A stretch of DNA of 64,000 nucleotides from Polytrichum commune (taxonomy: Eukaryota > Streptophyta > Polytrichopsida > Polytrichales > Polytrichaceae), in assembly GCA_950295325.1 (NCBI GenBank), contig OX485808.1, positions 8,496,501 to 8,560,500 on the forward strand, given 5' to 3'. Under the pieces are notes generated by a model. The model saw only the letters and a list, made by a program, of their open reading frames with translations, did not search any database and was not told the origin of the DNA. Of this stretch, positions 488-47,000 are shown in pieces. A program made the position numbers and the translations under genes. Numbering within the stretch: the first letter of the stretch is position 1; each line of letters begins with the position of its first letter.

Positions 488-1240
488 TTAAATGCATGTC
501 TCGCAGGGGGTTATTTTGCTAGCATCCGCAGTGGTAAGGTTATGGCCAGCCAGGAGGGGGAGCATCCTCCGAAATATAATAGTGCCAGGGTGCCCAAGCC
601 TTTTATGCCATATATCTGAGAGGGCGGCCGCCATGAGATATAGGCCAGTTTTCCGGGCTAAGTTGCGGGCTCTTGCACCAGGACCTTTATCCCGTGCAGC
701 CAGGCTAACTTCTTTCTCAGCCCTAGGGGTGGGGCTAATCGCTTTGATAGCGATCTCATATAGGCCATTGACTCCCGCTATGGCGGTAGCGAGGGTCCTC
801 TGTCCCTGCCGGAGTTCAAGCGCCTCTTCATCATTCTCTATCTTGGTAGAGACGTAGATACCATTTGTCCTTAGGTTCCGGTAGCTGATCAGGTTCCGGG
901 GGGCATCGGAAGCATACATAGCGTCCCGACATGTCATCGGGTGATTTTCGGGCAGCAAAACAGTTGTTGTACCTTCTTTGAAAGTTATGTTTTTTTGTCC
1001 TACTATTGTGGTAACGTGGCTAGTCCGCCAACCTATGTTACCAGTCGGGAATGAGAAAAACGTCAGACTCCTCAAGATGGTATGTGTGGAGGCACTGTCC
1101 AAGAGGGCAGTCTCCATACCTTGAGTCATTGGAGTTGTGACAGTCATGTAATTCTCTACATCCATATCTGAGATAGATGGAAGTAAGACTGCATGAGACT
1201 CTCTGTTTTGGCTACGTAACTTCTGTAGCTCTTTATACAT
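488..1240 (-). pseudogene. copia protease and GAG-pre-integrase segment
   Basis: A 250-residue frame follows gag. Near residue 47 is LLDSASTHTIL, the aspartic protease active-site region in the variant form lacking the Gly of the common D-S-G-A-S motif. Near residue 210 is DIWHKRLGHPG followed by CETC at the end, which is the His-His-Cys-Cys zinc-binding pre-integrase domain just ahead of integrase. The frame stops at TAA directly after the C-x-x-C-I, and the integrase core continues in the same frame beyond it. The stop therefore looks like a disabling point mutation rather than a gene end. Confidence 0.75.
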
Positions 1241-1245
1241 CTCAA

Positions 1246-2049
1246 TTATGTATGTTGATGCTTGGTAATCCCTAGCATAATGGCTTGGACGGCCACACTT
1301 GTCGCATGAAGATGAATTTTGCTTTGAAGCTTTGTGTTTTGGCGGGACATACCTCGGTTTTTGGTCTCTAGGCTTAAATTTGAATGGCCTAGGTGGAGGC
1401 CAACGCTTGGCGATTGGCGTGGAGCCTCCGAGAGGTGGACAGCTGGTACTCCATTTGATGATCTAGCAGCTATCATGGTGTGGATCTCACGTGCGGGCCT
1501 CGACTCTGCATTTTTAAATAACAAAGCCTGATGTTTCTCTGCAAGAAGGAGGTGAGACATCAACGTGCTATGTTTGGTAAAATTCATATTTCGGTATTGC
1601 TGTGCAAGGATTGCAGAAGCAAGTGGAAAGGTGAAGAGAGTCTTATCGATCAACTGTGCATCGGTGACTTGTTTGCCACATAAACGAAGTTGAGCATAAA
1701 TGCAGATTGTTTGCTCATGATGGAATTTGTCATGTAGTTGAGTCCACAAATCAGCAGGGTGATCTACTTGGATGTACTGCTCTCTCAAAGATGGATGTAT
1801 GTGCCTTCGTAGAATAAGCAATGTTTGACACTTGAGAACATATGGCCGACCCTCGGTCGTTGTTTTGTCTAGGTATATTGTTAGTTCCTCGACACCTAGA
1901 ACTATCTTAGCATCATTTGCCCATTCTAGGAAGTTCAATCCCTCTGCAGCAAGAGGGCTGAACCTAAAGGCTTTAAGGAATGGACCAGAATCTACTGGAG
2001 GTCTACTTATTGTGGCCATGGTTACAACCTGATCCGAAGAAGATGCCAT
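1246..2049 (-). pseudogene. copia gag (capsid-like) frame with displaced zinc knuckle
   Basis: A 267-residue frame begins MASSSDQVVTMATISRP. Its middle (W-T-Q-L-H-D-K-F near residue 100) fits the UBN2-type gag domain of plant copia elements. A CCHC-like zinc knuckle is visible only in another frame at about 1265-1320 (CDKCGRPSHYARDY). The 267-residue frame therefore ends in shifted sequence, which indicates a frameshift. The last ligand of the knuckle is Tyr instead of Cys. The start shown is simply the first ATG. The product would have packaged element RNA; this copy is probably inactive. Confidence 0.7.
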
Positions 2050-2946
2050 ATCGGGGCAACTTTGTAATCTGGTTGTAACGGGTGAACTACATTTGTGTAT
2101 TCTGATGCAATGCTTATACTAGAGTGATGATATTTTTTGGTTTCGGCCTATTACAGTCTGTTATGATTAGTTGTATCAGCTTAAGTATACAAATATACTT
2201 CTGATCTAGCAAAAATGGGGTTATATAGACCCTGGTCTAATCTGATAATGATTCAGACTTCAAAACAAACGAAACCGAAAGTTGAATCAAGTGTGTATCC
2301 TACTACTTGTGTAGATGTGGCCTGATCTAGGAGTTTAGGTTCGGTACAACAGTTCTAAGTTCGCAAATCAGTTTAGAACCGGACCTAAAACTTATGAAAA
2401 AAAAATAAAAAATTGTAATATCTTATCCGGAGTTAGAGTGCGGCAGTCTGCTGCTGTCTGAGGTTGAGAAGACTTTAGGTGGTCTTGGCAGCTGGAACTT
2501 GATTGTGTTGTTGCTTTAGTAGCAGCGATAGTCGGCAGCTCCGGGCGATCATCGGTCCATTGGCTGCATCAGCTAGGGAGTGGCTGCAGTAGCTACATCG
2601 ATTTCATGCGATCGAGGCGATGGCGGCAGCGATCGAAGTGTTGCAGTTGAAAGGTGTTGCGGCGGCAGCAGCAAGCAAGCAAGCAACCTAAACAATATGA
2701 GTTTTCATCTAAGTATCTCTCGGTTTGCTGTCTAAGCTGGTTTCTAGTGTTCTGGTGCTAGGAGCGACTTGATCTAAGGTAAATTAGAGACAAGATTGAT
2801 GCTCGATTAGAGCTTCCGCATGGTGTTGCGGAGAAAGAAACTAGACAGCAAGTAGAAGGCGAGAGAGAGAGAGAGAACTAAGCAGGAATGAGAGGGGATT
2901 TTTTTTTAAACTAGGCAGGTGTATTGAGCAATCGTGATTGATAACG

Positions 2947-10612: not shown

Positions 10613-18784
<8,172 letters not shown>

Positions 18785-29986: not shown

Positions 29987-30405
29987 CTAGACTTCTATTG
30001 TGGTCCCCAGACTCGGAACGCAGCTCCCATGCATTACAACTTCATATAGAATGTGGTCCTCGTCGACCCAAGATTGGACACTATGATTCAGGGATCAAGT
30101 CGTTTACTTGCGAGTATGCATGTTCATCAGACACAGTGCAGGTTCTTGAGTCGATCGAGGCCTGGAAGTTGGACTCCTGAATCCAATTTTAGTGAAGCTG
30201 GGCCGGGATGAGGTTGGGAACTAGTTTCAGGTGCTTCGGAGGTGAAGGTTCGCAGAATGATGGGATTGCCGGGCCACTGAATGGAGCGTAGTGTGAGGCA
30301 ATGATGGTGGAGTGCCCATGGCGGTGTTATTATTTCATGAGTATGCCTGAGGTTTCGAGGTCACGCACATCATTGGACAATATGAGCGTGTTCGTTCTGA
30401 CGAGG

Positions 30406-33400
30406 ATGGCGCTCAGGGTGATGGGAGTGGGGGTTCTAAGTCTCATGTGGAGCGCGCTCACAGTTGTGGCACAATTCTCTCCGGCATCCGCCTGGGCCCA
30501 GGACAATTACGATTACGCTCCAGCCCCGGCTCCTACAAAAGACATCAACTACTCGTTCTATAATGCGCTATCAGATGGCGTGTGCTCTTTTCGATTATGT
30601 ATATTCGGTGGACAGCTGTCAATCCTTGAGTTACGTACCCATGATCAGTTTGATTGAAACACTCGTATATAATTAGTTGCTGGCAAGCAACCTTAGTACT
30701 ACCACCTCACAGGCGCAAGTAAACTATGCTGATATATCAAGATGTTTTAGAATTCTCTTCTGATCAAGCTGGGTTGCGATACCCAAAACATGAAAACTGA
30801 ACATCTGGCAAGAGCACTATTTTCCACAAAGGAAAAGGGCACTAGTTTTCTAAGGAGTTTGACAACTCATGGGATGCTAGGGGAAGTGTTTGAGAGGAGA
30901 TCGTTACTTGACTCTACTCTTGCCCTTCCTTCGACGGATTTTTTCATGAAGCAGTCTATTGAAGTAAATATAGTCGTTCGTCCAACTAATTAACCAGTGC
31001 TTCAATGTTCCACAATAAAAGCGATGAGCAGTATAATGGGAAGCTGGAACCAAACCAATCCCAACCTCGCAAGCCTGATGCCAGCCTGGTCGGTTAACGA
31101 CGTACAGCCCTGCGTTAGTGGTGTTTGGATGGGAATTTTCTGCTTATTTGACTGTTCAAGTGGTCGCACCAACATCGTCGACGGAAATAACGTCACCGAG
31201 GTCCCTGTATGGGTCACTGGCTTGTGAGTGCCCTTCACATTATTTATTCCTCTACTACTTGTCAAGATTGTTTATCGATGATGATAGATAGGAAGTACCA
31301 ACGTTGAGGTGGGTTTTTCTCTAATGGGGAACTAAAAGCAGATGGTTGGCGGTTCATGTAACCATGTGAAACTATGGGGAGGAAGCACCACTTGCAAATT
31401 AACTTGAACAGACATGTTAATAGCTGTCCAGTAATTCTATTGACTTTTGTCTTTAGCTTTTTGATTCTACAGCTGATAGGTAACATATGCCATCCTCCAG
31501 AGTAAACCTGATAAGCCCCTATCGTGATTCTTCTGTCTCCGGATTGATGTTTACCTCAATAATGTGCAGTTAATGAGGCTTAAATGGCGTAACGGGATAA
31601 ACTTGAAAAAACATTGGAAAAAATCTGATAGACTTCATGCTCTCCCAGTTGCCTCTATAACATACAACATGGTGAAAAATGTAGAAACATCACAATAAGG
31701 GATGTGTTAGGTAACCCAGCACTATATACAGCCAAATTTCGTGAGCACAAGTTTCTTCAGTGAGTGGCCAAATTTCCTAGAGAACAACGGATTAAATTGA
31801 AAGTTATTTACCTCGAGATATATCAGCGAATCATCACGCTTCACGATGGCCGATGGTGAGTCACATCGCCAGTGGCTTGACGCGCGACGCCGTTTGTGAC
31901 AAACATGAGAAAAGAGCATCGGACACACGATCTGTGATCCTACTGTTATTGTCTTGGAAGAAACCATGTTCCTGTGCATAAGCAAATGAAACCCGTTTTA
32001 ATTTTATGCAGGGGCCTAAGTAATAACCGTACTGATGCATCACCTATACCCTCCTAGCCTGGCTGAAGCAATTCAAAGGCTTGATTATTCTGTGAGCACG
32101 CACATCCATTTTAAGATTTTCTTTTGTACTCGATCACTTATTAAACCATTTAAATAAAGTACCTGCTAGTTAGATCTAGTTTCTTCTAGACTGGCAGTAC
32201 TCTGCATTCGAATACGTGATGCATGATTCTGCAAGGGAGATATTTTGTCCGGCGTTAATGAGGATGTCAGTATGTATTGGCTGGTGCAGACAGATGGAAA
32301 ATAGCTCCCTTACCGGTGCCGTAGACCCATATCTTATTGGCAATTCGACTCTTCCACGACTCCAATATCTGTAAGCATTTCAATCTTGTCACAATGCTCT
32401 TGATTGCGTTCTCCTTAGAGTCACTATGTAGCATCGCCACAGTGTGCCCTACTTTGGAACTTCATTTTCTTGATCGATAAGAATCAATTTGTATGAATAT
32501 TGGAATCCCTGAAACAAGAATAATCAATATTGCCCTCCACTTTTGCTGGAGGAAGAGGAGGGACAAAAAGAGATTGCGAATGCAGATTGAAAAAGGTAAA
32601 CTCTTATCTCAAATAAGCTACCAACATATGCATTAATTAATCTTGTTGTCATGACAACCAAGCTGATTGTTCCTGTTTCGGATGATTTGACTCCAGAATT
32701 TGAGAAATCAGATGTACAACCGACTCTTTATTCTTACAGAGAACTAAAGGCAGTAACCAGGGATTTCAATCCAAGAGATGAAGGTGGGAAAGGCAGAGTT
32801 ATTTACAAGGTACAAGTCAAGATGTATTCAGCTTGTAACGTCTCAGTGTTGCATCCAATGGACTATAGATTGATTGTCAGTAGAGTAGACAGATCCATTA
32901 CTGATAACCCCCAAATCTTAATACATAGAGTCTCCTAAAGTCGTAAAGTTCCACACATGTAGCCATCATTTTCTAATGTGATGGAAAAGACTGAAGTTTC
33001 GCCATCACGTTCAGAGTGATGGAAAAAGTAAGCACGGATTTGGGTTCCTTGGAAAGGGCACTAATTGTATTCAAGTCTTCATCTCCCAATTATCATAAAC
33101 TCATGATGTGAATATTGGTTGGGAGAGAATCATGCCTTTGAAAATTTATAGTGATTTTAAAACTTGGAAATAAATTGTGATTTTCTTTTCAACATTGTGA
33201 TATCGATTTCCAGACGTGTGAAAAATCACTCCAATATCACACTTGTACTACGCTGATGGGAAATTGCTTAAGCTATCGGAAATGGGTATTTTTACTGTAC
33301 ACCGTATTTCAACTTAAACAAATGTGGTCATCCCGATAGACTTGTAGCCATGGCTTTTCAACAAGGGGTGCACCCTGATGGCACTGAATTGGCTGTGAAA

Positions 33401-35356
33401 CACCTATTGAGTAGGTCACAAGGGATTGATGAGTTTCTTAATGAAGTAGTGCTCATCATAGGTGTCCGGCATAGAAACTTGGTGAAATTGAAGGGATTGT
33501 TGTCTCTGAGATGATAAACGTCTATAGGTGTACGAGTTTGTCAAAAACACCAATCTTGCGGAGGCTCTCTTCGGTATGTTGATGTGCCCCCATTGTAGTG
33601 CAAATTAACAATGTTCAAGTGAGTAACTCAAAGTGTTGAATTGTTGATTTTCTTTCCTCAAAGGCCTATAACCATAATGCATGCTACTCAAGACTATGAT
33701 TTTTTGGGTCCTTGTTTGAAAGTATTAGGTTCAAGCATTTGAATTTGCTGATGTGTTTGAGGTTAACAGAGGGAAAAGGTGAACATGACATGCATTGAGG
33801 AGTATGATAGAGTATATGTCTTAGCATTGCTCAAGGTCTTCATCACCTCCATGAAAATGCCCTACCACGGATAATACAGAGACGTCAAAGCTCCAAATAT
33901 TATGTTGGACAAAAACTTGAATGCGAAGATTGCCAACTTTGATTTGGCCCAATTGTTTCCGATGATGAGAGTCACATCACTACCTTATACGTCGCTAGAA
34001 CCACGTGACTTTTCTATTTTTGAGTCTTGGCATCCATAGCCATCATATTAAGTAGTAATGCTAGCACTTAACCTTTTGATTTCATGCATTTTGTGTTCAG
34101 TAACAACTGTAACTATATATGCTTGTCGAGTAATCATGGTGATTCAAGGTGGACCTTGCTTTGTGAATCTTGCTTGACATATGTTTTCGAACTTGCTACT
34201 TAATGTTAATATGATGCTTGCACATATTTTGACAGTTCAGTTTGTAATATAGTCATTTTCTTTATGAGGTTAAATGCCATTTTTTTCTACTAGATGTCGG
34301 TCACATGTTCAACATGGCTCAATATACAAAGCTTAACTTGGTAGTAAAAACTATTAACTATTTCATTTTAAATATTGTGAAACTAGTTAAACAAGTTCTA
34401 ATGTTTCATAATCAATTTGAACATGTACATAAATTTTTATGATATTGATTGAATCACGCAACTCGTGTTCGAATGTTCCATAGTAATCAACAACTATATG
34501 GCTCTTGACTTATATGCTTCCCAATGCCAATTTACTGAAAAAGTTGACATATTTAACTTTGGAGTGGTGGTGCTCAAGATTGTGAGTGGTAGAAGAAACA
34601 TTGACCCCAAATTATCAGTCAAAGTCTACTTCATTGAACACAGAAGTTCATTTGCTACTTCAGTTTATGCTTAGGAGGACGTCAAATACTTTTTGGATTC
34701 TGTTTTTTGCATCCACCAATATATCCTATACTATGCCCCTTTTCTTTTTTTATTCCAACCGAATTATAGTACATTCTATAATGACTAAAAAAATCCTTTG
34801 CTTTTTTGTAATTCAATATTATATGAGGTTGTGAGGATTAAACAATATCTACTTTGGGGATTCAAATGGTAACTTGGCTCTCTGTTATGTACATGATGTA
34901 AGCATGGAGATGTCACGAGGAAGAAAGGCTACTCGCTATTATGGATAATTCATTGAACTTCCAAGGCTATGAGGCCGAAGTGGAACGAAATTACGATCAG
35001 TGGTGCTCTATTGTGCCTGCAATTGCAACTGGACAAAAACAACCATCCACTGCCAGAGTGGTCTTGTTGTTAAAAAGCCTAGAGAGTCATTCAGTTCGCA
35101 TCAACAGTATGGATCCTTTATGAAGACGGCGGAATCAAATTCTGGAGTAACTGCAATCAACTTCAAAGACTTTGAAAACAAACCTCTTCTCCATTTCCAG
35201 GACAGATTCGATCCCTTCCAGTTCAAGGACACCGTGCTTTCCTCCAACTCAGGGAAATTCCACTTACATCGAGCTTACCACAGTAACTCCAAGATGGTGG
35301 AGATGTACAATTGTGAGGTAAAACCAGTGTGCAATATAATGCAAGTCATGTCCTAA
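30406..35356 (+). pseudogene. decayed LRR receptor-like kinase, inverted paralogue of the 10.6-18.8 kb gene
   Basis: Exon-sized pieces match the intact gene in order: signal peptide and APAPAP linker (30406-30580), LRR cap exon (about 31013-31227, N-P-N-L-A-S-L-M-P-A-W), one LRR exon (about 32290-32371, NSSLTGAVDPYLIG), the post-membrane basic stretch (about 32545-32597, K-R-R-D-K-K-R-L-R-M-Q), the juxtamembrane/glycine-loop exon (about 32697-32810), the VAVK-type exon with ELAVKHLL (about 33368-33575), the catalytic-loop exon (about 33770-34005), the P+1/helix F exon (about 34510-34650) and the tail (about 34900-35340). Damage: most LRR exons and the membrane segment are missing, the glycine loop is changed (E-G-G-K-G-R), there are stops after the VAVK exon, a deletion breaks H-R-D, and DFG reads N-F-D. 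The first donor is GC where the intact copy has GT. No functional kinase can be made. Confidence 0.88.
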
Positions 35357-38574: not shown

Positions 38575-41500
38575 TCATTCATTGTCCCCTTGCTGCAATG
38601 CTTGCTGAAGTTCCAGATACCCATGTTCATTTGGATTGATAAATCTGCAAGGTAAGAATAGTTCAGTTCAAAAATCCTTCATAACAGCTGTTCTCACTTC
38701 AGTATACGCATTCCGCAGTAAGCTGGTCCAAAAAATGTGCATCGTTGTTATTTCTGAGGAAAGTTGTGGGATAGGATGATAAAAAACAAACCCATGTCTG
38801 TACAGGAAATCGATGACAACAAGAGCTGAATTCGGTTTATAGCTTCCAGTGGAGGAGCGAATCATCTTCGCAACATCCACGACTCGCAAAATTTTGAAAG
38901 CATCAATTTCACCATCTGACCATAGCCATCAGAACACACATGCTCTTGGTTTCAAGCTTTGAAGTTCTTCAGTAAGAATCTGACAAGCTAGTATGGAAGC
39001 AACCAGATGTCCATCAAAGCTGTAATTTTAGCTCTAAAGTCAAATGTTGCTAAAGGTTCAGATTATCAGACCATTATTTGTAGGTTGCCAGTCGAATGGA
39101 ACTTCAAGATCGTAGCAAAAGATGACATCTCGCTTGCACATTTCACCATTGATCTGTTCGTAGCTAATGCTTCTCACAGGTATAGCCCTGTAGACCTTGC
39201 CAGTCAGTGCAACAGGTGCCTTTGAAATCGATCCATTATAGTACATTGAGTCCTCTATCCTTAGTATGGCCCTTATTAGCCTTTCAAGGTCAAGGCCGTC
39301 CTATAAGTGCGTCTTTGAAAATTGAGATGACTTGTGTTGAGAGAAACATAAATTATGCTAAAATAATGGGCATCCTAGTAATCCATATATAAGATTTTGA
39401 TAGCAAATAGTTGCAATCAATTCGTAGCAAGGTATGATTTGATGAAATTGGGTCCCAATGCTGAAAACTAAGTACAACAAAGCTTGAAAGACACAACAAG
39501 TACATAGAAATGATGGCTCAAATTATTCAAATTGTACATTGAAATCCTTCGCATACTTGACTGACATTGCACCCTAATTCCAACTGATTTCTTCAAGCGG
39601 AGAACCTCATTAGAAGAAAAAACACTATTTCAAGAAGGCTAACATTTCTAAGAAATGGTTAAAGGTGAAGTCATCAAGAACCAACTTTCAATTTTCTTAT
39701 GTCCAGGGCCAGTCAAGGCTTAGTTGATGTCTAGGACCAATGGTGCTTGCGAGACCAGGGAAGAGCAATTGGGCTTACTTTTCTGCCATGGATGCAGGTA
39801 TGTTAGCTCTTGCAGCAGCATACTTGATAAGGTTCTCCTTTGGGGTGAGGTTCACAGCCTGTTGTATATGAAAAACAACGGACAATATACATGTGCAATT
39901 ATAAGTAACTCTATGAACAGGAAATGATATAAACATCAAACAAGATACCTAAAAGAAAAGACTACAATACACGCCCAAATCAGAGTGGGGTATGATATTG
40001 TGGATGGGTTTAGTAATAAGAACTTGGTTGTCATCACATCGCACAGTCAATGTATAAAGAACTTGTATCAATTTTATCTGTGGCCCAAGAGTCTCTGCAT
40101 AAATAAGAACAGATGACGGTCTTTGCAGAAACCATAACATTCTTAAGTAGCCAATTTAAGTTCCAATACAAATGTAATAATTCTTAGGTAATCTGGATAA
40201 CCTACGAATAAAAATCCATTGGGGACCCGTGCCTTCAATTGAATAGTGGCAGGTGGAAGAAGGCTTTGTATTCAAACATAGACAACAATAAGGTGCCACC
40301 TAATGAGAGCTTGCCACTTGACTATGCTCGATGGCATTTATGCACGTACTCAAGGACCTTCATTAATTTTTTAATCGTTCTTGAAGCTGGAATAGAACGA
40401 GCACGTCCTTGGACATGCTTGAGAATACTATGACTGCAGTAATGAAGGTCGTCAGCATAGGCATCTAAATACACGCAAATTGGAGTGAGGTGGCAGGCAG
40501 AAGAAAGCCTGACCTGGCCACCAGCAACCAGATGGTCAAATCTACCAGGAAAGTCCTGGTGAAGCTTGTTTTCATCCCGAATGCTTACCCACAAAAACCA
40601 CTCTCCTTCAATGATTGTGAAACCATTCAAATGAGTGTGGTATGCCTGCAGACCGGTCCAAGTCGAATTGTATCAGATCAAATCAGATCAAATCAACTTA
40701 AACGCTAAAATACAGTAGGATGTGTGAATATTGAAGACCACTAAGGGGCACTTCACTCTGGAGCTTGAGGGGCCGTGGCCATTGAAATCCAAAACCTGTC
40801 ATGGGTGGAAACTGCCGACATTGTCCCATTTCACTTTACATTAGAACTTGGGGGCTTAAGGGACCAAGGAAGTTTGAATGGTTGAAGAAACCTACATAGT
40901 CCTACAATGCATGCAATGGATAATGTATCATGGTCTACTGAATTGTGGGCCACGCCTACTTCTTCGAGGTGGGTAACCAAACCAATAGACTATGACACTT
41001 CAAAATCAGATAGGCCTTGGATCATCATAACTTGCTGTGTAGAAGAGCTCACATGAACAGGATGGTAATGAAATGACCGAATGCTGAGAGCAAGGTCACA
41101 TATGTCTTTACACTACATTGGAAGGCCCATGACCACACAAAATTCAATGTCACTTCTGCACGGTACGGCCTTTGTATGAATTTCAAATGCCTTTACAATT
41201 TCATGCTCACAGCCCTTATACATATTGTAAAGTGCCCCTAAAAGCAGTATTTTGGCATTTGGGTAACAACCATTGATGTCTTTTGCAATGCATTTCATGA
41301 CATGAAATTTGCGGCTGCGATCTGTAATGTCAGGATGACATTACTCTCAACTTGACAAGGAAAAAGCATAGAACCCGGTTGTAAGTCAGTCTACAGAAAA
41401 CTTACTTTGGTGCCCATATATGGAACACACGCTCGTTCCAACCAAAAAAGAGATGGTGCGCCAAAGCTTGACACCACTGGATATCGCTGTGTGCATATAC

Positions 41501-42846
41501 CCAATATCATGTGATCAATTTCCATACCTAGACATTGAAGCATGTAATCAGAGTTCAACACATGCTACAAAACATTCCTCAGTTGCCCCTAGAAATTTCG
41601 CTTGCCAGAGTAAGCACTATTAGCCAGGTCATAATTAAGGCAACTCCTATGGTCACTGGAAAATGATTCTCTCAATAATCAGCTTTCTAGATTTCTTTTT
41701 TTTCCTTTTTCCTTTTTTTTTTTGGGCGGGGGCGTTAAAGACCACATGCTCATTCCACCCACAAAACCTACATGTTTTCCAAAACCTTATTGCCCACCGA
41801 ATTTTGAGACTAACCCTCTAAACCCCTTCCCACCCTCAAAAATTGAAGGTCAAAGAACTTTAGAAGGTCTTCTCTCTCTCAATAATCGGTGGGCAATGAA
41901 ATTTTTTGATACATGAACTCTATGTGTGAGGTGAGCATGTGGTATTGGCCCAAAATGCTTTGAAAGCCAATTTTCAAGAGGATAGTCTTACAGCGACCAT
42001 AGGCGTAAGGATTGGTGTGGGATTTTGGCACCTCATTGCGCCAACTATGGATCTTCCCTTCCTTTCTCAGAATTTCCATTACTCCTTCAACAGCAGCTGT
42101 GCAGTCCTTTTCCCTTTGCAATGTCCGATTCAGTGTGATAATTTGCCCTCGGCTGTCTTCACTGAATATAAAAATTCCTGGGAAGCGCCTCAAATGTGCT
42201 GCAAATCTGAAGCAACAGATCTTCAGCTACAAATACCTTTTATAATACACAGAAACTATAACCAGCTAAAACAAGAAAGTGTAGCTAAAGAACTCGTGTA
42301 TTTTTAGATTACAAAGTCGGAAGGGGGATCATTTGTGTGGTGGAAATGTTCTTGTCTGTAACCATGTTGACCCTTCTTGCATATGATGAGCAGACAAAAA
42401 ATTCATTTCATAGACTTACTTCGGATGCACATAGCCAACGTGGAGCCCTTGACCAGCAACAAATTTGAGGAAGTTCTTGAGCTGACTCTGTAACATTCAA
42501 ACAAGTTGTATTGTCAAAAGTTTCACCTATCCAAATGCCAGCTCCTTTGCACATGATCCACACAAAGTAATGTCCGTTGCAAAACAAATATCATCATTCC
42601 CAGTTCACTCTATCATCTAATAAACACTACTTAAGGTGATGTAACTATATGTAGATACATTTATGTGGTGTGTACCCGATTGGAGTTGCAAACATTGACA
42701 TGAATCCAGTAGCCCTCCAGACCTTCAATCTCAAGGGCATATCGGGATGGGGTGTTATGCGTTGTCATGGAAGAGAAATTTCCCACCTGATCGATGGGGA
42801 AATCTGAGTAGGCTGTGCCAGGATATCTATTTGGTTTAGGCAACAT
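38575..42846 (-). CDS. NUDX20-like: Nudix hydrolase 20/24-type protein (DUF4743 plus Nudix fold) with altered catalytic motif
   Basis: A 338-residue model in nine exons: 42846-42676, 42487-42420, 42206-42032, 41486-41406, 40645-40514, 39858-39779, 39187-39072, 38915-38792, 38644-38575. All junctions are GT-AG and in phase. The N-terminal half matches DUF4743 (FLKFVAGQGLHVGYVHPKFA, then YPVVSSFGAP, LERACVPYMGTK). The Nudix half has HLVAGGQ, RDVIFCYDLEVP, VDVAKMIRSSTGSYKPNSAL and ends FINPNEHGYLELQQAL. Plant NUDX20/24 and yeast thiamine-pyrophosphokinase fusions share this layout; related enzymes hydrolyse oxidised thiamine diphosphate analogues. Here the metal-binding R/K-E-x-x-E-E-x-G region reads K-Y-A-A-A-R-A-N (residues 221-228), losing all three Glu, so catalysis is doubtful. 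No plastid transit peptide is apparent; an upstream first exon is possible. The donor at 42031 (GTGCCA) is weak but required by the phase. Confidence 0.9.
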
Positions 42847-44074: not shown

Positions 44075-47000
44075 TTAGCTCCCAGCTGCACCATACAATT
44101 AATTATGTGTTAGTCACCCCTGATTTCACCAGATGTGCGAAACCCACCCAAAAGTTTTAAAAGAAAAAGATTTTACTCACGATGCTTGTCTGGAAGATCC
44201 ACGTGGACAAAGAAGCTAGCCCCAACAATCAAGTAACATAGCACCAGCATAAGCCCCTTGAAGTAGTTGGCAGTACCTTCCTGTTTCACATAGTTGCAAC
44301 AACATGAAAAGAAGTGAATATAAAATAATCAGCTTACTAAATCTTAATATTTGTTGAATCAAGTTACTGCAATATAGATGCACAGATGACAAGAGCAATT
44401 CAATCTGATCACTTCGTGAAATGCCTTTTACCTCTCAAATCTCGTCAGAAAAAGCCCATAGACACACAAAATATAATCTGATGGGAGTTAGAATTAAATG
44501 AAATCATTAGAAGTGCTCCACAGTACATTCAGCTCAAGTTTCACATCCAAATAACTTGTAGAGCCCCAAAACATTACACCCTCAGAAAACAAACATGTAA
44601 GTGAACTCAAGTTATAATGACCAAGTTCAGCTTTTGCAGCTAACTCTTCCAAAGCACTCCCTTTTGTTGCTGATTACCTTTGGGGGTAAACATAAATAAA
44701 CTATATAGACATAGCAAAATATATAGGTGGATAGATACATATTTGAGTGAGTCCTCACCTTGAGCATGAAAGCAACCACCAGAACAGTGATGAAAAGGGA
44801 TGCAGTCTCATAGAGTTCAAAATTGAGGTCCATGTGAGTTCCCATAGGCCATCCAATGACAACACAAAACGGAATCTGCACAAGCAAGCTTTTAAATCAA
44901 CTCAAAGTCTCAATTCACGCAAATGATCATTGCTGTACCACTTGAACTATCCATTTTCACGAAGGCCTTTTTTCTACTCACCACAAACATTGAAATTTGC
45001 GTGGACGAACCAATGGCCACACCCAAAGATATATCCTGCCAAAGAGATGGAACAACTCCAATGAGTGAGATACAGTACCATCAGAAGATTTTAAAGATGA
45101 GTGCAGACTGTGTTTACACATGTGAAATAAGTTTAGGTGGGGTTTTAGGTCCTGGCTACATGCACGGATCTGCACCATGCCAACATGAAAAGAAAATTGC
45201 AAAAACCAAATCAAATGCTGCTAAGTCCAGTGCAAGTATGAATAGAAGACTCAGCATACATTATGGTATCACTTACCAGTTTATCTTTCAAAGCAAACAT
45301 TATTGCACTTGTATGTTCTGCTGCATTCCCAACAATTGGTAGGATGATAACACTTATGAACGCAATAGGTATGTTCCACGAAGCTGAAGCTCCCTAAGCA
45401 TCACAAAGAACACACAATGTAAGAACATGATTAGACACTACCTAATTTAACTACCACAGGGTTTCATCAAAATCAAACCTGAGATTGTGCTTACTTTAGA
45501 GTTACCCATAAGGTTTCCAATTCAATCTCCGGGTGAGTTGGCTAAGAAGTGAGTTTGAAACTTATGTGTACAATCACCCCAGGGTTTCTTAAAGCTTCAC
45601 ATGCTAGAAGAGCAGGGCCGGGCTATAAGTGGATTGGTGGGCCAAACTAGCCTTGCATAGGCCAAGCCAGGATTTAGGGTGGCAGGGCCAATGGGTTAGA
45701 CCCTATAATTTTAGATCCTAAAGTTCTCTCTAAATATTTTGAACTGAAAGAGGGCCAAGAGTCTCACCCAACTTTGAAAATCAGGCTCCAACAAAAGATG
45801 CTCTTACAAGCTCTTAATAGAAAAGTGCCTCAAAGAGTGACCAACTTCCTAGTTTGGTCCCTCTTTTGAGAGACTTTGCAGATAACTCTAGCTCCAGCCA
45901 ATATATCAAGAACAAAAATAAGTGATGTACCTCAATTGCACCAACTAGATATTCAGAGAGGATGGATATAAAAATTGTCAAGGCAGCCAACCAGCCGATG
46001 GAGGTCCAGAAACCTAGTAAAATCTCCTCTGAATCCAAGGGACCCGCATCGTCTCCTGTCTCCTAGAAAACATAGCCAGAAACTTGTTGAAGCTTTCAAT
46101 CTATTTTACAAATATTGTATTGTTCTAAGAGAATGAAATAAATCAGAAGCGCAGCTTAAGTCATGACAAGAATTTCTGCCTGATACTAGAGATAACTCAA
46201 CATGACTTTTGGTCGGGAGTTGGTTATTTTGCATACATCACCTACCAAGTTTGGTTAAGTTTTTGGTGCATAAATGAAGGTAGTGTGGAGGTTCGACCAA
46301 ACAACATTCTATATCGGTTCAATAAGGGTCAAACTCATTTTGGCATGCCAAGAGGTGCTAAAATGAGTTTGACCCTCAATGAACAGAAATAGGTTGCTCT
46401 TTATTCAAATTCAAACACTACCTCCGAGCATGCACCCCAAGTGAAAGGAAATTATTGATTTTGTATGCAAAACAACCAATGGAAAATCATAGGGAACTGA
46501 CTCCTAACACAAAGTCCATTGAGTTAAACAATAACTCTACTTGATGGCTTTAATAATTCCAAGAAGCTCCTAGATGATTCTTCACCTCTTCTGAGTCATA
46601 TAGATCTCGGTGACTTTTGAGCTGGAAATATAGGTAGGCTGTGTATGCCACCAACATTACAATGCTGCTGAACCTTGACAAAACAAGCTCAGATTTTCCA
46701 ATTTGCAGTTCAGTTCCAGTAGCATGGAGAGCTGCTGGGAAAAGAAGGCCCATGACTGCCATTAACAACAGGCTTGAACTAACTTGAGCTGTCACCTGCA
46801 TAGTGGGACAACAGTAAAGTATAAACAAGATAGAAACCTTACCCTAAAAAAGAAGGTGCTATAACCATTAAGTGTTGAGTATAGCTAATATTATTAGATT
46901 GATACGACTTTAAATATTCTTTAAATATGCAAGTTACCAATCAAAAGGGATTCCAACGCACCAAAACAAACCTTATTTGAATTTGGTATGCAGAACCTAT

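Follow-up and report, generated by a model that had tools for sequence, protein, structure and literature searches.

The question raised by this locus is what an otherwise intact gene of the Nudix fold may still do after losing the glutamates on which catalysis in the fold depends. Nudix hydrolases work with Mg2+ or Mn2+, which is held by the glutamates of the Nudix box. The box sequence is printed in PMC5389931, and the metal-binding form of catalytic members is R/K-E-x-x-E-E. The gene studied here lies on the minus strand at 42846-38575 of the window (the whole stretch of 64,000 nucleotides from Polytrichum commune that was analysed), and all three of these glutamates are absent from its product. 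The reading which we hold to be probable, with moderate confidence, is that the gene encodes a folded but catalytically dead Nudix pseudo-enzyme which is kept for binding or regulation.

The gene model was built by splicing, and the features are collected in Table 1. The earlier note had described nine exons which join with correct splice sites and phase and without stops; this was borne out, as the nine exons give a single frame of 338 residues, free of internal stops, across eight introns which are all GT-AG and match in phase. The G+C content is 45% in the coding sequence and 39% in the introns. When the exons are compared singly with a profile made from 69 proteins of the family, exons 3, 4, 5, 7 and 8 are each significant (E at most 2.3e-4), whereas exon 1 is unlisted and exons 2 and 9 stand at chance level (E 6.4 and 9.8). 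These last three rest on the unbroken alignment with the solved Nudix protein 3DUP and on the splice sites. Exon 1 enters this alignment with its last few residues only, from H49 onward; nothing in the comparison proteins corresponds to residues 1-47, and the position of the 5′ end is unsure, since an upstream exon or a transit peptide may have been overlooked.

Table 1. Positions in the window of the exons and of the altered segments of the DUF4743-Nudix gene.
Feature	Position	Strand	Basis and remarks
Exon 1	42676..42846	-	Residues 1-57; open frame, donor gtacac; start codon unsure, likewise a transit peptide
Exon 2, DUF4743	42420..42487	-	Splice sites and phase; within PF15916 match 49-166; weak singly
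Exon 3, DUF4743	42032..42206	-	Splice model, PF15916; E 3.8e-6 singly
Exon 4, end of DUF4743	41406..41486	-	Splice model, PF15916; E 2.3e-4 singly
Exon 5, start of Nudix half, last residues VAGGQ	40514..40645	-	E 3.5e-9 singly
Loop, residues 187-198 (IRDENKLHQDFP)	40547..40582	-	Set against the 149 proteins of the family
Exon 6, degenerate Nudix box KYAAARAN	39779..39858	-	Splice sites, 3DUP alignment, family profile, column counts
Codons TAT GCT GCT GCA AGA	39808..39822	-	Y222, A225 and R226 at the three family-glutamate positions
Exon 7, Nudix half	39072..39187	-	E 2.8e-8 singly
Exon 8, with family-conserved D275-G276-E277	38792..38915	-	E 9.4e-11 singly
Exon 9 and stop codon	38575..38644	-	3DUP alignment runs on to residue 332; weak singly

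The family of the spliced protein was determined by profile searches and by alignment. The Pfam scan gave PF15916 (DUF4743) with E 8.6e-29 and 100.5 bits against a cut-off of 25, covering positions 5-118 of the 118 of the profile; the two other rows up to E 1 were both far under their own cut-offs. The protein shares its two-part architecture with 3DUP, to which residues 48-332 were aligned with E 9.6e-50 and 39% identity, and it scored 266 bits over positions 5-276 of the 277 of the prokaryotic family profile (69 proteins), so that its Nudix half is co-linear with the members. The Pfam NUDIX profile reported neither the window protein nor 3DUP, and the other five of the six scanned members reached 20-25 bits against its cut-off of 21.1; this profile is of little use here, because 3DUP was missed as well and the members score around the cut-off. 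The NCBIfam search of the window protein returned no family, and no relative was found in two scans of viral contigs. Judged by architecture and sequence, the gene is a member of the DUF4743-Nudix family, which is that of Arabidopsis NUDT20/24, yeast YJ9J/YJR142W and S. pombe Tnr3, presumably implicated in the removal of oxy-/oxo-thiamine diphosphate; 3DUP itself is presumably a protein of Rhodospirillum rubrum. In PMC12210691, PF15916 is exemplified by a MutT/nudix protein of R. rubrum and is linked with thiamine metabolism.

The loss is located in exon 6, an exon of 80 bases between the acceptor ...caacag and the donor gtaagc, which encodes AVNLTPKENLIKYAAARANIPASMAE(K). The exon (AVNLTPKENLIKYAAARANIPASMAEK) was matched to 3DUP without a gap, in a stretch which reads QAVNLTPKENLIKYAAARANIPASMAEKAIPV in that protein, so that K-Y-A-A-A-R-A-N of the window protein stands against K-E-C-A-E-E-A-D, in which 3DUP retains the glutamates. 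The three glutamate positions are taken by Y222 (39822-39820), A225 (39813-39811) and R226 (39810-39808). The exact exon borders and this alignment uphold what was first read from the letters, and the further claim that all three acidic residues are replaced in a spliceable, otherwise intact gene is supported. Among the relatives, 149, 148 and 149 out of 149 have glutamate at the three positions. The prokaryotic-family profile of the box stretch was run against every open segment, in six frames, of the window of 64 kb; exon 6 ranked first, although weakly when taken singly (E 0.28, the runner-up 4.1); with the full prokaryotic family profile it is borderline (E 0.11). Leaving out the three glutamate columns, its mean identity to the family is 0.373, and the other exons lie at 0.26-0.41. 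Because the three glutamates are gone and an arginine stands at one of their positions, it is very unlikely that a metal site of the usual kind is present.

The comparison set consisted of 149 proteins, 148 of them prokaryotic and the other 3DUP. The prokaryotic members came from seven loci of one scan and from PF15916 matches, which were present in three of three individually chosen genomes, in 115 out of the 385 scanned from one class and in 40 out of the 398 scanned from a phylum. Eight PF15916 places were left out (in G280, G452, G477, G515, G565, G587, G651 and G730), and three duplicates (L008, L009, L010) and a frame split into two pieces (L019) were removed before counting. Apart from the seven loci and 3DUP, the members were picked up by PF15916, which covers the N-terminal domain only, so that the box played no part in their selection. 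All three glutamates are present in 148 of the 149 proteins, and the sole exception, L137, has glutamine at the middle position.

There are 22 columns in which 95% or more of the 149 proteins share a single residue; they were obtained from 82 printed columns minus 60 whose commonest state is a gap, columns with a gap in the window protein standing outside the count. The window protein matches 19 of these 22, and its three misses are exactly the three box glutamates; that three misses should land there at random is a matter of 1 in 1540, a piece of arithmetic and not a formal test. The first set of 69 proteins had given 15 invariant columns; the window protein agrees at 12 of these and again misses only the three glutamates. 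At 85% conservation this set has 55 columns, 41 of them kept, and none of its conserved columns lies opposite a gap in the window protein. The residues kept are G75, E138, R156 and G163 in DUF4743, and H170, G173, W184, R188, P198, D202, G207, G208, A227, P271, D275, G276, E277, F281 and R314 in the Nudix half. Since these strongly conserved residues remain, the fold has probably been preserved, and with it a part of the pocket. When a tree was built from the window protein and the 149 others, its terminal branch was the 6th longest of 150, and its root-to-tip distance ranked 25th; the long branch may reflect relaxed constraint, or simply the absence of plant relatives from the tree.

Two observations were made on the prokaryotic members themselves. 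The box of L137 reads V-E-A-D-Q-E-A, and the same genome (G118) has a second member, L060, with an intact box, which is a possible bacterial parallel. At L014, L017, L022 and L025, neighbouring DUF4743-Nudix gene pairs lie on the same strand, with the box intact in both copies.

On the reading of a pseudo-enzyme, the gene, a nuclear one of a land plant, would give a folded DUF4743-Nudix protein which is probably unable to hold the catalytic metal, three box glutamates being replaced and one of them by arginine. The glutamates were most likely lost while the remaining protein stayed under purifying selection, and it is this order of events that favours a pseudo-enzyme over an old pseudogene. 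A diphosphate ligand is most likely still bound, with R226 perhaps neutralising charge in place of the lost metal; alternatively the protein may pair with an intact paralogue. In both cases it would act by binding or regulation. That the ligand resembles thiamine diphosphate is suggested by family membership.

The known members of the family are reported to be active enzymes, unlike the window protein, which is predicted to be inactive. Activities of NUDT20/24, YJ9J/YJR142W and Tnr3 on oxy-/oxo-thiamine diphosphate are tabulated in PMC5158307, and a secondary account of the activity of the family is found in PMC4120688. According to the former source, the yeast and Arabidopsis enzymes are slow on oxy-/oxo-thiamine diphosphate and more active on GDP (PMC5158307), so that even the ligand of the family is a putative one. 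A precedent for a pseudo-enzyme of this fold is Syndesmos/NUDT16L1 (TIRR), a Nudix paralogue which, like the window protein, is without the catalytic glutamates, and which has lost decapping activity and functions as a binding protein, as described in PMC6294507. It is paralogous to NUDT16, a decapping enzyme, and its Nudix subfamily differs from that of the window protein. PDX1.2, which concerns a different vitamin and whose fold is unrelated to Nudix, can only illustrate in what way a paralogue without catalysis might work. This plant protein is a non-catalytic pseudo-enzyme which regulates vitamin B6 biosynthesis (PMC6829848). In a limited search of the literature, no pseudo-enzyme of the DUF4743-Nudix family was met. 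According to PMC5389931, 38 of 78 solved Nudix-clan domains are without the canonical box; such domains are thus already common, and the window protein is a further variant.

It is unlikely, yet the best of the alternatives, that the protein is still an enzyme and has other acids as its metal ligands, such as those of the loop 187-198 together with E277 and D275, and perhaps with an altered substrate, in the manner of the GDP-mannose-type Nudix enzymes with changed boxes. The loop, which precedes P-G-x-x-D-x-x-VAGG, is remodelled in a way that suits this: the base at 187, basic in 86% of the family, is lost, the acids D189, E190 and D196 are gained and two residues are inserted at 193-194, and D202, D275 and E277 are retained; further charge changes in the Nudix half are R241, E246 and N321. 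The plant enzyme AtNUDX9, an AtNUDX9/Nudt22-like protein of a different subfamily, resembles the window protein in its replaced box glutamates; its box arginine and three glutamates are replaced, and it is reported to be active on GDP-mannose (PMC4566977), so that the loss of the motif is no proof of inactivity. The altered box of AtNUDX9 is, however, common to its relatives from green alga to mammals (PMC4566977), whereas the sampled DUF4743-Nudix family retains the box, with three glutamates in 148 of the compared proteins and a single glutamine in the remaining one. In addition, R226 brings a positive charge to a position where a metal ligand is expected.

The possibility that the gene is a recently silenced duplicate, in which the glutamates were lost under relaxed constraint and which is now a young, unexpressed pseudogene still to gather stops, seems doubtful to us. 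Neutral decay was simulated with 400 copies, assuming uniform drift and with the true ancestor of the gene unknown; none of the 400 copies was free of stops at 0.5 changes per site, 2% were at 0.1 and 43% at 0.02. A gene which had long been neutral was rejected on this simulation, as stops would be expected, and a young pseudogene with few changes can remain without them, as the last figure shows. The long terminal branch also suits recent silencing, and a loss of glutamates under selection for another role, followed by late silence, would look identical. On the other side, the change of the glutamate codons into TAT, GCA and AGA takes at least two, one and two changes, that is at least five substitutions in three codons; in a stop-free gene such a change fits poorly with neutral decay, and together with the 19 of 22 conserved columns kept elsewhere it makes it most likely that the glutamates were lost earlier than any silencing. 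The claim of the earlier note that the protein is under selection is thereby supported indirectly, by the conserved columns kept and by the stops which neutral drift would bring.

An artefact, whether a wrong exon, an overlooked alternative exon or a sequence error, is very improbable, for although exon 6 is short and weak when taken singly and a motif split across an exon junction would escape a motif scan, the exon is gap-free, in phase, between matching splice sites and at the top place of the window for its profile, there is no E-x-x-E-E in the minus-strand frames of 43000-38500, introns included, and at least five separate substitutions are unlike a simple read error. The relaxed pattern [EDQ]xx[EDQ][EDQ] has four matches in the same frames, none of them in introns 5 and 6. 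An exon with an intact motif between 40513 and 39187, the case which had been set against the first reading, was not found in any minus-strand frame, and an alternative box-carrying exon is therefore ruled out save for a box split at a junction. An intact tandem copy in the window is also ruled out, as K/R-E-x-x-E-E-x-[GASDN] has no match in its six frames; a tblastn search of the protein against the window returned its own exons and two short matches (E 1.4 and 5.9).

Other elements were noted in the window. Pieces of a receptor-like kinase gene were recognised by eye in the translations at 10613-12877 (-), and parts of a second, inverted copy lie at about 33757-35356 (+), about 22-24 kb away; the copies are linked by inverted pairs of 126 and 115 bases which are 80% and 77% complementary. 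What is likely a decayed Copia-type retroelement lies at 488-2118 (-), where two frames of different phase overlap and one of them has a gag_pre-integrase domain (E 5.7e-7); this domain was the sole Pfam match among seven frames of the window, the kinase-core pieces not being among the seven. The kinase pieces and the gag region speak for a land plant as the source with high probability, on our reading of the sequence and not by a database match. An inverted repeat at 46265-46436, with 81-base arms, 73% complementary, and a 10-base spacer, is perhaps an old hairpin-forming transposon. A short frame at 30292-30657 (+), with a hydrophobic stretch followed by APAPAP, resembles a plant arabinogalactan peptide by eye and has no Pfam match. 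The window yielded neither a tRNA nor, at gathering score, any match to Rfam.

Returning to the pseudo-enzyme, a more specific role can be offered as speculation which we regard as rather improbable: a thiamine diphosphate repair enzyme may have become, in a land-plant lineage, a protein which senses or carries (damaged) thiamine diphosphate without a metal, in which the arginine at the former metal site would neutralise the diphosphate, and which would possibly be a regulatory partner of an active paralogue. A natural member of the family which is without the glutamates, but has otherwise kept nearly all of the strictly conserved residues, would set binding apart from catalysis. Such a member could tell whether the protein has, besides catalysis, another role in the metabolism of vitamin B1.
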